Assembly: GCA_030625775.1 (NCBI GenBank) | Contig: DAOUQC010000011.1 | Location: 1-64,000, forward strand | Direction: 5' to 3' | Origin: Verrucomicrobiota bacterium | GTDB lineage: Bacteria; Verrucomicrobiota; Verrucomicrobiia; Verrucomicrobiales; DEV007 | Length of the DNA stretch: 64,000 bases | Shown here: one piece after another, positions 3,027-25,956 of the stretch | Position numbering within the stretch: position 1 is the first letter of the stretch | Layout of the letters: each line of letters opens with the position of its first letter | The notes under the pieces: generated by a model | Databases searched by the model: none | What the model saw: only the letters and a program-made list of their open reading frames with translations | Told to the model about the DNA's origin: nothing | Translations under genes and position numbers: made by a program

Positions 3027-4648
3027 ACTCCAGCAAGCCCAAAGTCCTGCTCATCGCCAGTGGCGATTCCCGTCTCTCGTCCAATCGTCTTTGCTGGCCA
3101 GCCCAACAAGCGATGGAAGCAAAACTCAGTGAGGCGGTTGAAACTCTCGGGTTCAAAATCGCCCGCACTCATGCCGTCAACGAAGACGGGCACGGATTCA
3201 TCGACAGTCAGCACCTCGGCATGAGTATTTTTCGCGAGCTTGATCCGGACGCGCCTCTCATCGTCGCTGAGGCGGTGTGGCAGTACAGCCATCATGTTCT
3301 CGCCGGACTCTCCACCCATCGCGGCCCCATCCTTACCGTCGCCAACTGGTCGGGACAATGGCCCGGCCTCGTTGGCATGCTTAATCTCAATGGATCCCTT
3401 ACCAAGGCGGGAGTTCAATTCTCTACCCTCTGGAGCGAAACGTTCCGTGATGACTACTTCACTGACAAGCTGAACAACTGGTTGAATACTGGAACTTGCA
3501 AACATGACCTGAGCCATGTCAGCCCCTTGCGTCCCGAATCCATTGCCGACGACGTCGATACCATTGGCCGCAGGCTCGCCGATCAGCTGCGCAGCGATAA
3601 ATCCATCATGGGAGTTTTCGACGAGGGCTGCATGGGAATGTATAACGCCATCATCCCCGACCATTTGCTCAATCACACCGGTGTGTTCAAAGAACGTCTC
3701 AGCCAATCCGCCCTCTACTACGAATCACAACAAGTTCCTGATCAGCAAGCCGAAGACATTTTCCAGTGGTACCTCGACCACGGTTTCAATTTTCATTTTG
3801 GCGACAACGAAGACGAAGACCTCACCAAAACGCAGGTGATTGAACAATGCCGGATGTACATCGCCGCCGTTCGAATCGCCGATGACTTCGGCTGTGAGTC
3901 CATCGGCATTCAATACCAGCTTGGCCTGAAAGATCTCATGCCCGCCAGCGATCTCGTTGAAGGCACTCTGAATAGCACCCGGCGCCCACCGGTCTTCAAT
4001 CGTGACGGGTCACGTGAACTCTATCCAGGACGCTGCATTCCTCATTTCAATGAAGTCGACGAGTGTGCCGGCTTGGACGCCTTACTCATCAACCGCCTTC
4101 ATACGGAACTCGGGCAACCTGTCGAAACCACCCTGCATGATTTGCGTTGGGGTGATTTTGATCAATCAGGGACCACAGACGAGTATGTCTGGGTCTTTGA
4201 AATTTCCGGATCTGCACCCGCCGAACATCACGGCGGATGGGACAAAAGCCACGGTTACGGCCAGGCAAGAATGTATTTCCCCAAGGGCGGCTCCACCCTG
4301 TCCGGCGTGGCCACAGCCGGGGAAATCATCTGGTCCCGAATTTACATGGCCAATGACGCCCTGCACCTTGATATCGGACGCGGCAAAGTCATCGAACTGC
4401 CCGAAGAAGAAACCCAACGCCGCCTGGATTCAACCACCCCTGTCTGGCCCATCATGCATGGAGTCACCTACGGAACCAGTCGTGATCAGATGATGGCACA
4501 ACATCAAGCCAATCACATCCAGGTGGTCTATGCCACTGATACCGAATCAGCGGATCGTGCCCTGTTCGCACGCGCAGCTTTTGCACACCACCTGGGCATC
4601 CAGGTCAACTTGTGCGGCACTCGAAAAAACTCTTCTCTATGGGCTTAA
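3023..4648 (+). CDS. L-fucose/arabinose isomerase-like protein
   Basis: A 541-residue cytoplasmic protein without signal peptide. The N-terminal part resembles the first domains of the FucI/AraA isomerases, notably the stretch around residues 99-118 ([18 protein letters not shown]) and the LWSETF segment that follows. A later acidic [13 protein letters not shown] region and the C-terminal [11 protein letters not shown] and HGVTYG segments fit the sugar-binding C-terminal part of FucI-like proteins. The ATG overlaps the symporter stop; the frame open upstream from 2750 lies inside the symporter gene and is not used. The likely role is aldose-ketose isomerisation of the imported sugar, possibly fucose or a related deoxysugar. 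I am sure of the gene, moderately sure of the family, and unsure of the substrate. Confidence 0.7.
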
Positions 4649-20849: not shown

Positions 20850-22352
20850 ATGCGCTCGCTCCTATCAATCCTCTTCCTCGGTCTGACGGTTTGTGGATCG
20901 GGATATGCCGAGAAGGCGATCTCGATCGGCCATCACCGGCAGATGTTCATCGACGACTTCATCATCGACGAAACCGAGAACATCACTCGAAGGCTTTGCC
21001 CGGTTGAAAAACACCCCGAAAACCCCGTTGTGCGCCCGGATCGCCCCTGGGAGGGGCGGCTGACCGTGCCGCAGGGATCCGTGATCTACGACGAGCAAGA
21101 AAAGCTCTTCAAGATGTGGTACACCACCAATGTGCAGTCACGCGGAGAGGGAGAAACCTTCAACAAAGGCAAGGCGCTGGCCTACGCCACCAGCGAGGAT
21201 GGGGTGCATTGGGATAAGCCCGAGATGGACATCGTCATCGAAGACGGTCGCAAGACCAATCAGGTCATCGCACCAATGGAATTCGGCTACATGTATCAAC
21301 CCTACTTTGTCATCAAAGACCCGGAGGATGAGAATCCTCAGCAGCGTTACAAAATGGCCTTCCTATCCATTCAGCGAAACATCAACGACCCAAATATCGC
21401 TAATCATGGGAACACCCGCAGAGGTTCGGGCGTGGCTTTCAGTGCGGATGGTCTGCACTGGAACAAGGTCAAGGATTTCGCTTCCGATGACCTGATCGAT
21501 ATCAGCCACTTCATGGTCGACCCAACGCGTGAGGATAAATTCGTCATCTACGGCCGAACGCTGAAGGTGCTACCCGAGATTCAGGAGGCCTGGAAGGGAT
21601 ACGACTGGTTCGAGCCAGTCTACGGCGGACGTGCGGTGATTCGTTCAACCAGTCGCGACTTCCTCAATTGGGAGCCGGCGGATTTTATTCTGGGGCCCGA
21701 TTTGAAAGACCCGCCCAGCACAGAGATTTATTCGATGAATGTGTTTCCCTACGAGGGAATCTATCTGGGCCTGGTCCAACGCTACCTCTGCCGTCTCGAC
21801 AAGAACACCATCGATATTCAACTGGCCATCAGTCGGGATGGGGTGCACTTCGAGAGACCCTTCCGGGATGCCTTTTTTCCCCTCGGCTCGATCGGCACCT
21901 GGGATCGTTTCCAATTGCACAACATGTCCGGCCCTCCACTGACGCAGGGCGATGAACTGTGGTTTTATTACGGAGGGAGGACCTCCCGCCACCGCCCTAA
22001 CAAAATGACTGATGCCAAACCTGGCGGCTCCACTGGCCTGGCCACCATCTTAAGGGATCGCTTCGTTGCGGCAGAAGCCAGTTTCGAAGGCGGACGCCTA
22101 CTCACCAAGCTTGTAAAATGCGAGGGAGCGGCACTCAAGGTGAACGCCAATACCACATTCGGTAAAATCGAGATTCGATTGCTCGACGATCAAGGTGACC
22201 CACTGATGGGGTATGAGGCGAACATCGAAGGAGTCGATTCGGTCGAGCATATAGTGCCCTTTGATAAAGTGACGGAGTCGCTTCAGGGGCAACCGATACG
22301 AGTTGAGTTTATGATCTACAACGCACAGTTGTATTCGTTTTCGATTCAGTAA
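20850..22352 (+). CDS. Secreted glycosidase-like beta-propeller protein
   Basis: A 500-residue secreted protein with a signal peptide over residues 1-20. Repeated SEDGVHWDKPE, SADGLHWNKVKDF, TSRDFLNWEPA and SRDGVHFERP units are the aspartate-rich blade signatures of five-bladed propeller proteins related to GH32/GH43 glycosidases. Such proteins are very common in Planctomycetes and Verrucomicrobia, usually without a tested activity. The C-terminal 90 residues form a separate beta domain (LLTKLVKCEGAALKVN). The stop codon lies at the outer edge of the first attC-like site, so this gene is the immediate left neighbour of the cassette cluster. Confidence 0.8.
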   Translation: MRSLLSILFLGLTVCGSGYAEKAISIGHHRQMFIDDFIIDETENITRRLCPVEKHPENPVVRPDRPWEGRLTVPQGSVIYDEQEKLFKMWYTTNVQSRGEGETFNKGKALAYATSEDGVHWDKPEMDIVIEDGRKTNQVIAPMEFGYMYQPYFVIKDPEDENPQQRYKMAFLSIQRNINDPNIANHGNTRRGSGVAFSADGLHWNKVKDFASDDLIDISHFMVDPTREDKFVIYGRTLKVLPEIQEAWKGYDWFEPVYGGRAVIRSTSRDFLNWEPADFILGPDLKDPPSTEIYSMNVFPYEGIYLGLVQRYLCRLDKNTIDIQLAISRDGVHFERPFRDAFFPLGSIGTWDRFQLHNMSGPPLTQGDELWFYYGGRTSRHRPNKMTDAKPGGSTGLATILRDRFVAAEASFEGGRLLTKLVKCEGAALKVNANTTFGKIEIRLLDDQGDPLMGYEANIEGVDSVEHIVPFDKVTESLQGQPIRVEFMIYNAQLYSFSIQ

Positions 22353-22403
22353 CGTTCAGTGTATAGTCGCGCCATTAGCGTCGACTGCCACTCCTTGTTG
22401 GGC
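22347..22403 (-). repeat. attC-like recombination site 1
   Basis: Read on the minus strand, the site begins with GCCCAAC (fits RYYYAAC exactly) and ends with GTTACTG (GTT core). Between them AGTG and AGTCG pair with CGACT and CACT around a short unpaired bulge, and an inner CGC/GCG stem closes a small loop. This is the R-L-loop-L-R plan of integron attC sites. It lies 17 bases after the stop of the first minus-strand cassette gene and overlaps the stop codon of the opposing plus-strand gene. Confidence 0.65.
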
Positions 22404-22419
22404 ATCTGGATGGCGTATG

Positions 22420-22992
22420 CTAAATATGTTCATTGACCAGTTCTCCATGCTTTCGCTTTACTGCCAATAATAATAAGCCATAGATAAGCAAAATGTAGAA
22501 TGCGACCGTCATGGTGCTTTTCAGGATTGAAAATGCACTTGTAAACTGAACCACCCCTAGACTCAAAGTCGGATAAGATTTGAGCATAATCACAACACCT
22601 ATGTTTTCGATATAATCGAACAAGCCCGCAGCAGCAGGAACCAAAGCCAGTATAAATATTTTTGACCCAGAATTAAATCTCTTACTGAAAACCCAGATTA
22701 ACATTAGGGTGTATGTTACTGCGAATAGTCCAGGGTATATGAAATCAATTGGCAACTGAAGCATCAAATATGTCTCCCTGCCTTCAGGCCCTATGGACTC
22801 AAGCAACTTCTTTGCATATTCATAAGAATACCCACTGGGTAACATGTCGAACAGCTTCATTTCCGGAGCCTGTTCCAGAACCGCTGGAATAGAGTAGGAA
22901 ATAATAGCGATGAACACACAAGTAGTTATGCCGAAAAGCAACAGAACAAGCCTTCCTGAAACTTTCAGATTTATTTTTTCAAATATCATCAT
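22420..22992 (-). CDS. Unknown membrane protein (cassette gene 1)
   Basis: A 190-residue protein with four to five predicted helices (LVLLLFGITTCVFIAIISY; a second near 80-100; FILALVPAAAGLFDYIENIGVVIM; FYILLIYGLLLLAV). I recognise no family. It starts with two consecutive ATG codons and no clear ribosome binding site. It is the last minus-strand gene of the attC-bounded cluster, followed by attC-like site 1 and preceded by site 2, so it has the arrangement of a mobile gene cassette of about 680 bases. Its coding sequence is visibly richer in A+T than the flanking chromosomal genes. Confidence 0.7.
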   Translation of the reverse strand: MMIFEKINLKVSGRLVLLLFGITTCVFIAIISYSIPAVLEQAPEMKLFDMLPSGYSYEYAKKLLESIGPEGRETYLMLQLPIDFIYPGLFAVTYTLMLIWVFSKRFNSGSKIFILALVPAAAGLFDYIENIGVVIMLKSYPTLSLGVVQFTSAFSILKSTMTVAFYILLIYGLLLLAVKRKHGELVNEHI

Positions 22993-23023
22993 TACAGGAC
23001 CTTTAAATTAAACTTCATGTTTC

Positions 23024-23144
23024 GCCCAACGACCGAGCACAGGCAACCCGCTAGTGGGGGCGAGTGTTAACGAAGAGGTTAATGGTTAAAGTTTTCTTTA
23101 TTCTTAACTGCGGAGCGGCTAGCGGGTTGCTCTACTGCGTTTTG
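23024..23144 (-). repeat. attC-like recombination site 2 (long form)
   Basis: On the minus strand the site ends in GTTGGGC, an exact GTTRRRY. Its main stem is long: GAGCAACCCGCTAG on the 5' side pairs with CTAGCGGGTTGC and GTGCTC on the 3' side, leaving a few unpaired bases in one arm. The 5' arm lies inside the 3' end of the cassette gene, so the last 20 residues of that protein are encoded by the site. A shorter version using GTTAAC as the 5' core is possible. The 5' core is less clear than in sites 3 and 4. Confidence 0.5.
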
Positions 23145-23723
23145 TTCTCCCTCGTTTGGTTCCATCGTGACGAATACATCCTCAACTTTCAAGTTCTTAT
23201 AGGCTGAAATATCAAGATGCTCGGAAACAAAGGTTTCGATCTTCTCAAATGTCGAAAGATCGTATTCCGGTTCGAAAATCTGTTTCTGATTTTCGTATCC
23301 AGTAAATTGCGCCTCGAACGAAAAGGAGGAAGTGAAATTGCGATAGCAGTCATCCCACACCTCCATGTCAAAAAATAATTCGCAATTGACTTGGAAGTTT
23401 CGTCCGCCAAGATGGCGTAGCTCCAAAAATGGAAGATCAATCGGAAGCCACTGGTTCCGCATTGGGCTCATCCCCTGAATTTCGTCCTTCTTGTAACGGT
23501 ATACTCCCGAAATTTGACGCCAGTCGCGCGCGCCATTCAAAGGCATATTCGTGAGTTGAATAGCGCGTTCAAACGGCTCATCCTCTTCGTGCAACGCAAA
23601 GCCTTCGAGATCGATGGAGATGTTGTAGTCTATCCGTAAGCCCGTATCTGGGTAAGTCATCAGTAGTGTGTCAATTCGACCACCCTTGATTCGTTGAAGT
23701 TGTTCTTTGGGGAAATCACGCAC
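23079..23723 (-). CDS. Unknown soluble protein (cassette gene 2)
   Basis: A 214-residue protein without signal peptide or membrane helix, rich in acidic and aromatic residues. No family is recognised. The C-terminus (NAVEQPASRSAVKN and six more residues) is encoded by the 5' arm of attC-like site 2, suggesting the reading frame runs through an attC stem, as happens for some integron cassettes. It starts 15 bases after attC-like site 3, the very short leader typical of cassettes. Confidence 0.7.
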   Translation of the reverse strand: MRDFPKEQLQRIKGGRIDTLLMTYPDTGLRIDYNISIDLEGFALHEEDEPFERAIQLTNMPLNGARDWRQISGVYRYKKDEIQGMSPMRNQWLPIDLPFLELRHLGGRNFQVNCELFFDMEVWDDCYRNFTSSFSFEAQFTGYENQKQIFEPEYDLSTFEKIETFVSEHLDISAYKNLKVEDVFVTMEPNEGEQNAVEQPASRSAVKNKENFNH

Positions 23724-23737
23724 GAGATATTTTCTTA

Positions 23738-23792
23738 GGCTAACGTTCAGGCTGACACACCCATAGGGTTGTCGTCCAGCCGCTTGTTATCC
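23738..23792 (-). repeat. attC-like recombination site 3
   Basis: On the minus strand the site runs GGATAAC, spacer AAGC, a stem and loop, spacer TGAAC, and ends GTTAGCC. The 5' arm GGCTGGACGACAACCC pairs with GGGTGTGTCAGCC if four bases of the 5' arm are left unpaired. Unpaired bases on the 5' (L'') arm only are the signature that orients real attC sites. One of the two clearest sites in the cluster, between cassette genes 2 and 3. Confidence 0.75.
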
Positions 23793-23800
23793 GTATCAGT

Positions 23801-24358
23801 CTATTTAGACTTTCTCCTGGAAATTACTAACCATTCCTCATTGGTTTTACCGTTTTGGTCATATTTTTCAGCCGACTTCAAACTGCTCTTAACTCTAAGT
23901 GTAAAGAAAAATTCCTTACTGTAACGAAGAGTAAATGTGCGGCGTTTCTCATCAATTCCTGAAAGGCTGTAATTGAATACACCCTTTCCTTTGGCGGATT
24001 CATCCGCTTCAATATATTTATCAGTAACAGTATATACGGTTCCATCTTCAGCCTTAAACGAAACCATGTTCAACCACTTGAGGAATGTGACTTTTCCCGC
24101 CGTAAGCGACCTTTTTCCCGAGTCAGCGTTCCCGCCGACCTTATCAATTTCGTTCAGGATGGCTGATACTGCTTTCTTATCGCCTCCTTTTACATAATCA
24201 GATTTTAGTTTGTTTAAAGCCTCTATATATTTTTGCTTCAAAGCCTGCCCCTCCTTATCGTAGGATTTACGTAGATCAGCAAGGCGCTGAGGTTCTTCCG
24301 CACCCACTGTAGATGTCAGCAGCAGCACATAAAATAGAAGTTTTTGGATAGAGGTCAT
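23801..24358 (-). CDS. Unknown secreted protein (cassette gene 3)
   Basis: A 185-residue protein with a signal peptide at 1-20 (cleavage near TVGAEE). Residues 25-70 form an amphipathic coiled helix pair (LRKSYDKEGQALKQKYIEAL and DYVKGGDKKAVSAILNEID), a pattern seen in many secreted Verrucomicrobia and Planctomycetes proteins. The remainder looks like a small beta domain. Function unknown. It is bounded by attC-like sites 3 and 4, so it has the form of one cassette of about 635 bases, yet its architecture is native to this phylum, suggesting capture from a related genome. Confidence 0.7.
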   Translation of the reverse strand: MTSIQKLLFYVLLLTSTVGAEEPQRLADLRKSYDKEGQALKQKYIEALNKLKSDYVKGGDKKAVSAILNEIDKVGGNADSGKRSLTAGKVTFLKWLNMVSFKAEDGTVYTVTDKYIEADESAKGKGVFNYSLSGIDEKRRTFTLRYSKEFFFTLRVKSSLKSAEKYDQNGKTNEEWLVISRRKSK

Positions 24359-24372
24359 GGGAGATAATTTAA

Positions 24373-24427
24373 GGATAACGGTTGAGGCTAGCTCATCCTC
24401 TGCGGGAGTGAGCGTAGCATGTTGAAA
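24373..24427 (-). repeat. attC-like recombination site 4
   Basis: On the minus strand the site runs from TTTCAAC (six of seven bases fit RYYYAAC) to GTTATCC. The arm GCTACGCTCACTCC pairs fully with GGATGAGCTAGC when two bases of the 5' arm, both C, are left out of the helix. The loop is CGCAGA. A 12-bp stem interrupted only by two one-sided extrahelical bases, flanked by AAC and GTT cores, is hard to explain other than as attC. It separates cassette genes 3 and 4. Confidence 0.78.
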
Positions 24428-24439
24428 AGTGTATCGAAG

Positions 24440-24826
24440 TTAAAATGGGCTGACAACTGAAAACAGGCAGAGGATTAGCTGAGCCGTTTTGTTCGCTTCT
24501 TGTTTTGTGGAAATGTTGCCCTTGTTTTTAGTATGATGATTCTTGGAGATGCTACGAAATAGAGTAGCAATGCCTCCACAACAAAAAAGAGCTGCGAGAA
24601 ATCCGGTGATCAATACTGGTAGATAAAACGGAAAATATTCAAGCTGATCCTGCCACCACGAAGTATCTGATGCGAAATCCTGCATTTCTCGTTGGTCTCC
24701 GACTGCGTCCGAAACAATAAAGTGCACGCCGTTGAATAAATAGAAAGTTACGATTCCACAAGCGATGCCAACAGCAATAAATGTCAGACCAAGGACGGTT
24801 CGGATTAAGTGAGCCAATGGGTTCAT
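24440..24826 (-). CDS. Unknown two-helix membrane protein (cassette gene 4)
   Basis: A 128-residue protein with two hydrophobic helices (residues 9-30 and about 63-90) joined by a polar loop containing VGDQREMQDFASDTSWW, and a charged cytoplasmic-looking tail. No family recognised. It is the first gene, in transcription order, of the attC-bounded cluster, with attC-like site 4 after its stop and the degenerate site 5 about 50 bases before its start. Confidence 0.65.
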   Translation of the reverse strand: MNPLAHLIRTVLGLTFIAVGIACGIVTFYLFNGVHFIVSDAVGDQREMQDFASDTSWWQDQLEYFPFYLPVLITGFLAALFCCGGIATLFRSISKNHHTKNKGNISTKQEANKTAQLILCLFSVVSPF

Positions 24827-24871
24827 TTTCTAGCGAACAGTTTTATTATACGACCCCTACCCTGATCTCGG

Positions 24872-24923
24872 ATATTTCGAGTTCAGTGACCTGCGAAGCA
24901 GGTTCAACTGCAACTCGTTCGCG
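24872..24923 (-). repeat. Degenerate attC-like site 5
   Basis: On the minus strand GAGTTGCAGTTGAACCTGC pairs with GCAGGTCACTGAACTC across a TTC loop if three bases of the 5' arm are left unpaired, giving a 16-bp stem with one-sided extrahelical bases. A GAAC core is present on the 5' side, but the expected GTT on the 3' side reads GAA, so the site may be dead or mark the edge of the cluster. Orientation matches sites 1-4. Confidence 0.45.
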
Positions 24924-25179
24924 GCCTTAGCTCGATTCTACTGACGCCACTTTTTCGGTCAAGCCTCGAATTTCATCTGAGTATGATTGCTCGCCAGGGT
25001 TTTTGTATGCTACATCCTCTCCATGCTCGATTTACTCCTAAGGTTACATCCGTATGGATATGGACGACAATGGGGGCTAAACGATCACAGATAGTTAATC
25101 ACAATTCACCCGAGGTAGATTTCCAATGCTGGCTCGATTATTTTTGAGCTGAACTCCAGATTCGCCACTTCACCTTGGC
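24924..25179. other. Gene-free stretch next to the cassette cluster
   Basis: With the degenerate attC-like site, the gap between cassette gene 4 and the SHD1-like gene is 353 bases. I find no plausible reading frame, no integrase fragment, and no clear attI site. It contains an 11-base word (TTGTATGCTAC at 25003-25013) that also occurs at 20328-20338. A promoter for the cassette genes could lie here but none is convincing. Confidence 0.5.
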
Positions 25180-25956
25180 TCACCCCTCGGGAAGTGGGAT
25201 CACCCGCATGAAGGTCTGCTGTTTGATGGCCCGTTTCTGATCCGACGCGGTGAGCTGGTCGAGAGGGAAAAGAAATTCCTTATTGTTGCGCCGGAAGCGG
25301 CATTGGCCATCGGCGACTTCAACCAGTTCAGCCAGCATCTTGCGACCTTTGCTATCCGACCATTCAGAAGCTTGGGCCCAAGCCGGTTTTGCGATGCTGA
25401 GAATTTTGAGATCTTTTTTACCGAAGCCGATGTCGTATTTAAAGATACCTCCAAGTTCGTAGGCGTAGGTTTCGACCGGGTCGCCTTCTCCGAGAGATCC
25501 GGTGAGATCCTTGATAAGAACCAGGCCTGAGACAATTTCCGCCCCTCGTTTGTGATCCGGAGACTCCTTCTTGGCATCTTCCTTCTCGTCCTTTACCAAA
25601 CCTGTATTGACCACCACCCCGTCTTTTCCCGCTTGGAATACCTCGCCCTGGACCCAGTAGGCCTTGAGCCGGATATTGTTGAGAGCATCCTGAAAGCTGT
25701 GACGGATCGTACCTGCTTGAAATTTTGACAAGTCAGCCCAGGGGACCAGCTTGAGGCCTTCGGTGGTTTTGAGATAGGCCCCTTCGGTGCCGAGATCAAC
25801 CATCGAGGCATTAGCAAAAACACGATCTTTTTTCGCAGTGGATTTGTTGGTTTGGGCAAAAGCCGGAACCAGCCAGAACGGGGTGCCGATTACTATGGCA
25901 GCCAGAATGACAGCCAGAAAACGGGCGTGGCGGCATAAGGAGGTGATTCGAAACAT
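25180..25956 (-). CDS. Secreted SHD1-like domain protein
   Basis: A 258-residue protein with a signal peptide over residues 1-35 (cleavage after PAFAQ). The C-terminal 60 residues, with WSDSKGRKMLAELVEV, RFRRNNKEFLFPL and LDQLTASDQ, match the SHD1-like repeat that is frequent in secreted Verrucomicrobia and Planctomycetes proteins. The middle part, with an acidic KDEKEDAKKESPDHKRG insert, is unassigned. No enzymatic role can be inferred. It lies downstream of the HEAT-repeat sulfatase on the same strand with an 87-base gap. Confidence 0.7.
   Translation of the reverse strand: MFRITSLCRHARFLAVILAAIVIGTPFWLVPAFAQTNKSTAKKDRVFANASMVDLGTEGAYLKTTEGLKLVPWADLSKFQAGTIRHSFQDALNNIRLKAYWVQGEVFQAGKDGVVVNTGLVKDEKEDAKKESPDHKRGAEIVSGLVLIKDLTGSLGEGDPVETYAYELGGIFKYDIGFGKKDLKILSIAKPAWAQASEWSDSKGRKMLAELVEVADGQCRFRRNNKEFLFPLDQLTASDQKRAIKQQTFMRVIPLPEG

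Follow-up and report, generated by a model that had tools for sequence, protein, structure and literature searches.

A Short Verrucomicrobiota Cassette Array without a Linked Integrase and with an attI-Like First Junction

Four consecutive minus-strand open reading frames, flanked by genes at 20850-22352 (plus strand) and 25180-25956 (minus strand), are found in a 64-kb stretch of DNA (here, the window) from a 78.7-kb contig, C82, of a 4.88-Mb, 158-contig draft genome. The window encodes a PVC-type marker protein (TIGR02604), consistent with the assignment to Verrucomicrobiota made in an earlier note on this DNA. The note proposed that each of the four genes is followed by an attC-like structure and that together they form a cluster of attC sites lacking an integrase (CALIN). 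Integron cassette arrays are a means of mobile gene capture, and such arrays spread antibiotic resistance. The locus raises two questions: whether these four small genes are integron cassettes, and, if they are, how an array came to stand here with no integrase beside it. Because the genome is a 158-contig draft, contigs could be mis-joined.

attC Sites and Cassettes

The cassettes span 22353-24837 on the minus strand, and an attC site terminates each of the four. Two covariance models were used in the search: R1, built from 13 attC sites of plasmid (clinical) integrons with the window excluded, and R2, built from 16 attC sites beside intI in relatives with this genome excluded. E values from both are rough, as the calibration was short. 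The features of the array are as follows.

22347-22403, minus strand: attC site 1 (cassette 1), with core complementarity and a circular fold of z -5.7
22353-23029, minus strand: cassette 1, 677 bp, reading frame 22420-22992, start core TTGGGC
23024-23150, minus strand: attC site 2 (cassette 2), 127 nt, R2 41.0 bits, E 6.4e-9
23030-23743, minus strand: cassette 2, 714 bp, reading frame 23079-23723, its end overlapping attC
23738-23792, minus strand: attC site 3 (cassette 3), 55 nt, R1 E 0.009, R2 32.6 bits, E 1e-6
23744-24378, minus strand: cassette 3, 635 bp, reading frame 23801-24358
24373-24497, minus strand: attC site 4 (cassette 4), 125 nt, R2 13.4 bits, E 0.11
24379-24837, minus strand: cassette 4, first in the array, 459 bp, reading frame 24440-24826, its end overlapping attC

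With both strands searched and filters off, the best R1 match in the window was site 3 (E 0.009). R2 returned three matches only in the 64 kb, at sites 2, 3, and 4 and all on the minus strand, of which that at site 4 was third, last, and marginal (E 0.11). An attC-model search had been put forward earlier as the check on sites 3 and 4 and on at least three sites overall; site 3 was recovered by both models, site 4 marginally by R2, and three sites in total by R2. Site 1 in its array form was matched by neither model, a search of Rfam returned nothing, and R1 found nothing over the whole genome because the score of site 3 is too weak at that scale. In the aligned attC sites of the relatives, the R boxes pair, as do the L boxes, with covariation, and the base at position 16 is unpaired; the clinical sites used for R1 have the same layout. 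Site 2 is approximately 90% identical to an attC site beside intI in a congeneric genome (G002), with divergence beginning at the R' core.

In an integron cassette, the opening six bases and the preceding G complement the cassette's own R''. The cores here bear GTT and are complementary within each cassette: GTTGGGC against R'' GCCCAAC in cassette 1 (7/7 bases), GTTAGCC against GGAGAAC in cassette 2 (5/7), GTTATCC against GGATAAC in cassette 3 (7/7), and GTTCGCT against AGCGAAC in cassette 4 (7/7). Between array neighbors, just 0, 1, 3, and 1 of the four variable core positions match, and the true pairing ties for best among the 24 possible pairings, cassettes 2 and 3 being interchangeable. 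For site 1, chromosomal sequence at the stop codon of the gene at 20850-22352 supplies the rest of R' (GTTACTG). Circular attC sites were restored by completing the core and then folded, with a class 1 site as the control. Sites 1, 3, and 4 folded end to end (z of -5.7, -3.6, and -2.95), similar to the control (z of -3.6), and site 2 kept its stem but not its outer core. Extrahelical bases are clearly confined to the L'' side at sites 3 and 4, and unpaired bases lie on both arms of site 1; the one-sided pattern had also been claimed for a fifth site, which is not an attC site (see below).

Stem structure by itself is weak evidence. When a stem-only finder was run against 24 shuffles of the window, sites 2 and 4 ranked top in the real window (22.9 and 21.1), but a top score of at least 21 was also reached in 4 of the 24 shuffles, counting either strand and near misses (in three of them, more than one of the listed stems scored at least 21). 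The stem-only search is not decisive because shuffles reach similar scores, and the case for an integron rests instead on the covariance models, core complementarity, and identity to an intI-linked attC. The similar scores in some shuffled windows would suit terminator-like hairpins between ordinary genes, a reading that is contradicted by the covariance matches, the core complementarity, the near-identical intI-linked attC, and the integrase in the genome and that we consider extremely improbable. Earlier coordinates were exact for sites 1 and 3. For site 2 (23024-23144), the start was right and the end moves to 23150, giving 127 nt. For site 4, 24373-24427 covered the 3' part alone: the site extends over 24373-24497 because the 5' arm proper (AGCGAACAAAACGGCTCAGC...) is found another 70 bp upstream, and the shorter version was an inner hairpin.

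The four products gave no significant family match in Pfam, NCBIfam, or the PDB. Cassette 1 encodes a hydrophobic protein of 190 amino acids predicted to be all-helical, cassette 2 a protein of 214 amino acids without a known domain, cassette 3 a protein of 185 amino acids that, judged by its sequence, probably carries a signal peptide and a coiled coil, and cassette 4 a hydrophobic protein of 128 amino acids (start core TTCGCT) that is probably a membrane protein. Single-sequence structure models were too poor for searching, both for cassette 1 (all helix, low confidence, pLDDT 60) and for cassette 2 (pLDDT 32). A role in antiphage defense, raised previously as a possibility, is unsupported, as PADLOC matched none of the four proteins. 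Homologues of cassette 1 were absent from the 189 other genomes of the order, those of cassette 3 in the order were weak partial matches only, and a peptide-pattern search of 84,980 species genomes found no close relatives of cassettes 2 and 4. There were likewise no homologues of cassette 4 in viral contigs, of cassettes 2 and 4 in genome contigs, or of cassette 2 in plasmids. By these searches, the four genes are not a conserved ancestral block; such a block in relatives without attC-like sequences is what the earlier note had named as speaking against cassettes. The GC content of the array is 43%, compared to 52% for the window, and is about the lowest of any stretch of that length.

In a congener (G001), the left neighbor gene is conserved (88% protein and approximately 90% nucleotide identity) with no array behind it. 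Homology ends at 22352, where the predicted junction and the stop codon fall together, and the sequence beyond is unrelated. Support for G001 as an empty site is weak because the breakpoint coincides with the stop codon.

A CALIN is defined as two or more attC sites spaced by less than 4 kb, with no integron integrase within approximately 4 kb. The array holds three model-supported attC sites as well as site 1, identified by core complementarity and folding, all inside 2.2 kb. TIGR02249 found no integrase on C82 and tblastn no remnant in the window, in agreement with the earlier note; no intI adjoins the array, and with intI on other contigs only this is not a complete integron. An intI could lie past the left end of C82, 22 kb from the array. 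The four small genes are integron cassettes and the finding is real; that they form a short sedentary integron cassette array without a linked integrase, as first proposed, is in our view almost certain from the attC models, core complementarity, and likeness to an intI-linked attC.

The First Junction of the Array

The start of the array holds a feature absent from the earlier note, and a second locus in the same genome resembles it.

24838-24854, minus strand: attI-like junction with putative promoter element GTCGTATAATAAAACT(G), 17/17 identical to a junction in G015
24879-24916, minus strand: hairpin (the former "site 5"), not attC, z -3.5, common to the C23 locus
Contig C23: second attI-like locus without intI, CATAATTATACT|GTTGGGC followed by one cassette and preceded by a like hairpin

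Cassette 4 starts at TATAATAAAACTG|TTCGCT with the core ACT|GTT, within the junction GTCGTATAATAAAACTG|TTCGCT at 24854-24832 (minus strand). A -10-like TATAAT lies at 24845-24850, and cleavage is expected between G (24838) and TT. Up to the cut, the sequence matches at 17 of 17 bases a junction that follows intI in G015, a genome of a different genus. Among related genomes, ACT precedes GTT at 18 of 35 intI-adjacent first junctions chosen automatically (19 of 30 after hand curation) and at 0 of 67 inter-cassette junctions, which mostly have GAC, AAC, or TAC. Fisher's exact p for first versus inter-cassette junctions is 1e-10, a value that overstates independence because some loci are near copies. 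The window has a single copy of the motif TAAT-N3-ACTGTT, at the array start. The first-cassette core is of the kind found beside intI in relatives and is accompanied by a -10-like element. From this attI-like first junction, the CALIN appears to have kept attI together with a -10 promoter element while lacking intI.

Further ATAAT-N3-ACTGTT...ATG sites with the look of an integron occur at G006:C120:1393-1421 and G031:C81:86483-86508, with no attC within the short loci examined. An identical start, TTCGCTAGAAAATGAACCC, is shared by unrelated cassettes at 24819-24837 of the window and at L109 (G001:C103, approximately 3716-3739), which suggests a conserved cassette leader for translation.

Upstream of the junction where cassette 4 starts lies the hairpin that had been taken for a fifth, degenerate attC before the first gene. 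Although it folds well, it lacks the GTT core of an R' and is found again upstream of the attI-like junction on C23; we reject it as an attC site. Hairpin and flank are 77% identical over 81 to 83 bp to C23:16223-16303. The cassette on C23 has a degenerate attC (E 0.037) whose R'', GCCCAAT, still mirrors the cassette start. Between the attI-like site and the gene at 25180-25956, half of a dispersed palindromic (MITE-like) element occupies 25020-25066; a copy at G000:C53:7626-7672 in this genome is 89% identical and a near-complete inverted repeat.

Integrases in the Genome and Origin of the Array

A search of the whole genome for intI, as had been suggested, found the gene elsewhere. TIGR02249 identified a full IntI on contig C79 (357 bits against a cut-off of 265) and a second, partial one on C73, cut by the contig end. 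The C79 enzyme (L001:1033-2442, G000:C79) has 470 amino acids; the approximately 150 that precede its SAM-like domain had no Pfam match. Many IntI proteins of this genome and its relatives have open frames of 440 to 540 amino acids. Other attC sites lie on C119 (three in a row), C2, C83, C100, C114, and C113, and since several are near contig ends, arrays may have been fragmented by assembly. Integrons are common in the order, with an integrase in 75 of 190 sampled genomes and 63 of the 153 of good quality. This rate is higher than the 20% reported for complete integrons in Gammaproteobacteria (PMC8618304), but search criteria differ. In several loci (L058, L059, L064, and L001), intI and the cassettes share one direction and attI lies downstream of intI; in L068 and L052 intI is divergent, and both layouts are present in one complete genome (G029).

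We propose that an integron integrase would have captured four promoter-poor cassettes as circles through their folded bottom-strand attC sites and joined them at G|TT cores, giving an array that would start at an attI-type site and end at the neighbor gene's stop codon. The -10-like TATAAT may drive transcription into cassette 4 and beyond. The integrase would have been either supplied in trans, by the complete gene on C79 or the partial one on C73, or lost locally. CALINs can be mobilized in trans (PMC12444791), and an IntI elsewhere in this genome can in principle move the array's cassettes in that way. The computations show the attC sites, the exact borders and the orientation of the cassettes, the attI-like junction, and an intI on other contigs; recombination and promoter activity, supply in trans, and the cause of the local absence of intI are inferred.

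Three origins were weighed as alternatives within the CALIN conclusion. It is possible, at the level of a tentative proposal, that the cassettes were inserted off target at a nonclassical site (attG) beside a promoter, so that the likeness to attI reflects the core preference of IntI. Off-target insertion is one route to CALINs in the literature (PMC8618304), insertion at attG is documented in work cited in PMC11023631, the array is flanked by ordinary chromosomal genes in a window that holds no remnant of intI, and a stop codon marks its left border exactly. This origin does not readily account for the 17-base identity, extending upstream of the core, with the intI-linked attI of another genus, and independent insertions at unrelated sites leave unexplained the 77% identity of the C23 locus over 81 to 83 bp upstream. 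We hold it just as conceivable that a complete integron lost its intI by local deletion, leaving attI and cassettes behind. The attI-type first junction points this way, the half palindromic element alongside at 25020-25066 is a possible deletion agent, and loss of intI is also a proposed route to CALINs (PMC8618304); an intI remnant is absent from the window, however, and for the C23 locus a further loss, independent of the first, or a duplication would have to be invoked.

Rather unlikely, though with the C23 locus in its favor, is an origin in which duplicated intI-less attI-promoter sites serve as extra docking for one integrase in trans. The window and C23 share the hairpin, the -10-like element, and the core, each followed by one or more cassettes. 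Against this, there are two cases only and the platform function is putative, the attC of the C23 cassette is degenerate (R'' GCCCAAT, E 0.037), and the whole hairpin-attI unit has no further copy in 37 relatives. More doubtful still is the general form of this proposal, that the genome keeps several intI-less attI-promoter platforms, duplicated with their upstream hairpin and loaded in trans by one integrase. If true, several such platforms would make this a distributed integron, not a decayed one.

Relation to Known Integrons and Significance

Earlier work has described integrons in Verrucomicrobiota and found CALINs to be common (PMC8618304, PMC9024848). The array matches the CALIN class of IntegronFinder in its four attC sites within 4 kb, single orientation, few cassettes, and lack of a nearby intI, and differs from it in its attI-like first junction with a -10 element. 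With the sedentary chromosomal integrons of relatives it shares the attC architecture (R''/R' and L''/L' boxes with one extra base at position 16, the one-sided bulge being clear at sites 3 and 4), sites of 105 to 128 nt, and the ACT|GTT first junction; in those integrons (G029, with two intI genes and long arrays; L058; L068), unlike here, intI is directly beside the array. The attI2 of class 2 integrons (AATAAAATGTTRRRY, PMC12901181) is similar in its AT-rich left flank, G|TT core, and AATAAAA(C)TGTT; it differs from the present junction by one extra base, and recombination at the latter is only predicted. As described in papers that cite Loot et al. (2024), insertion at attG resembles this locus in placing chromosomal cassettes without a linked intI and is unlike it in that the junction here is attI-like and recurs with its upstream sequence.

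The cassette array is therefore of an already known type, and its attI-type start without intI is the less expected part; no report of such a start was found in the open-access literature, a scope that leaves out most subscription journals. According to the IntegronFinder 2.0 paper (PMC9024848), attI sites beyond those of class 1 integrons are poorly characterized. Conservation of TAAT-N3-ACT|GTT beside intI across one order provides a testable consensus for attI and its promoter. Surveys have left integrase-less arrays undivided in this respect, and such a consensus could separate arrays that start at attI (former or satellite integrons) from arrays that arose by off-target insertion.
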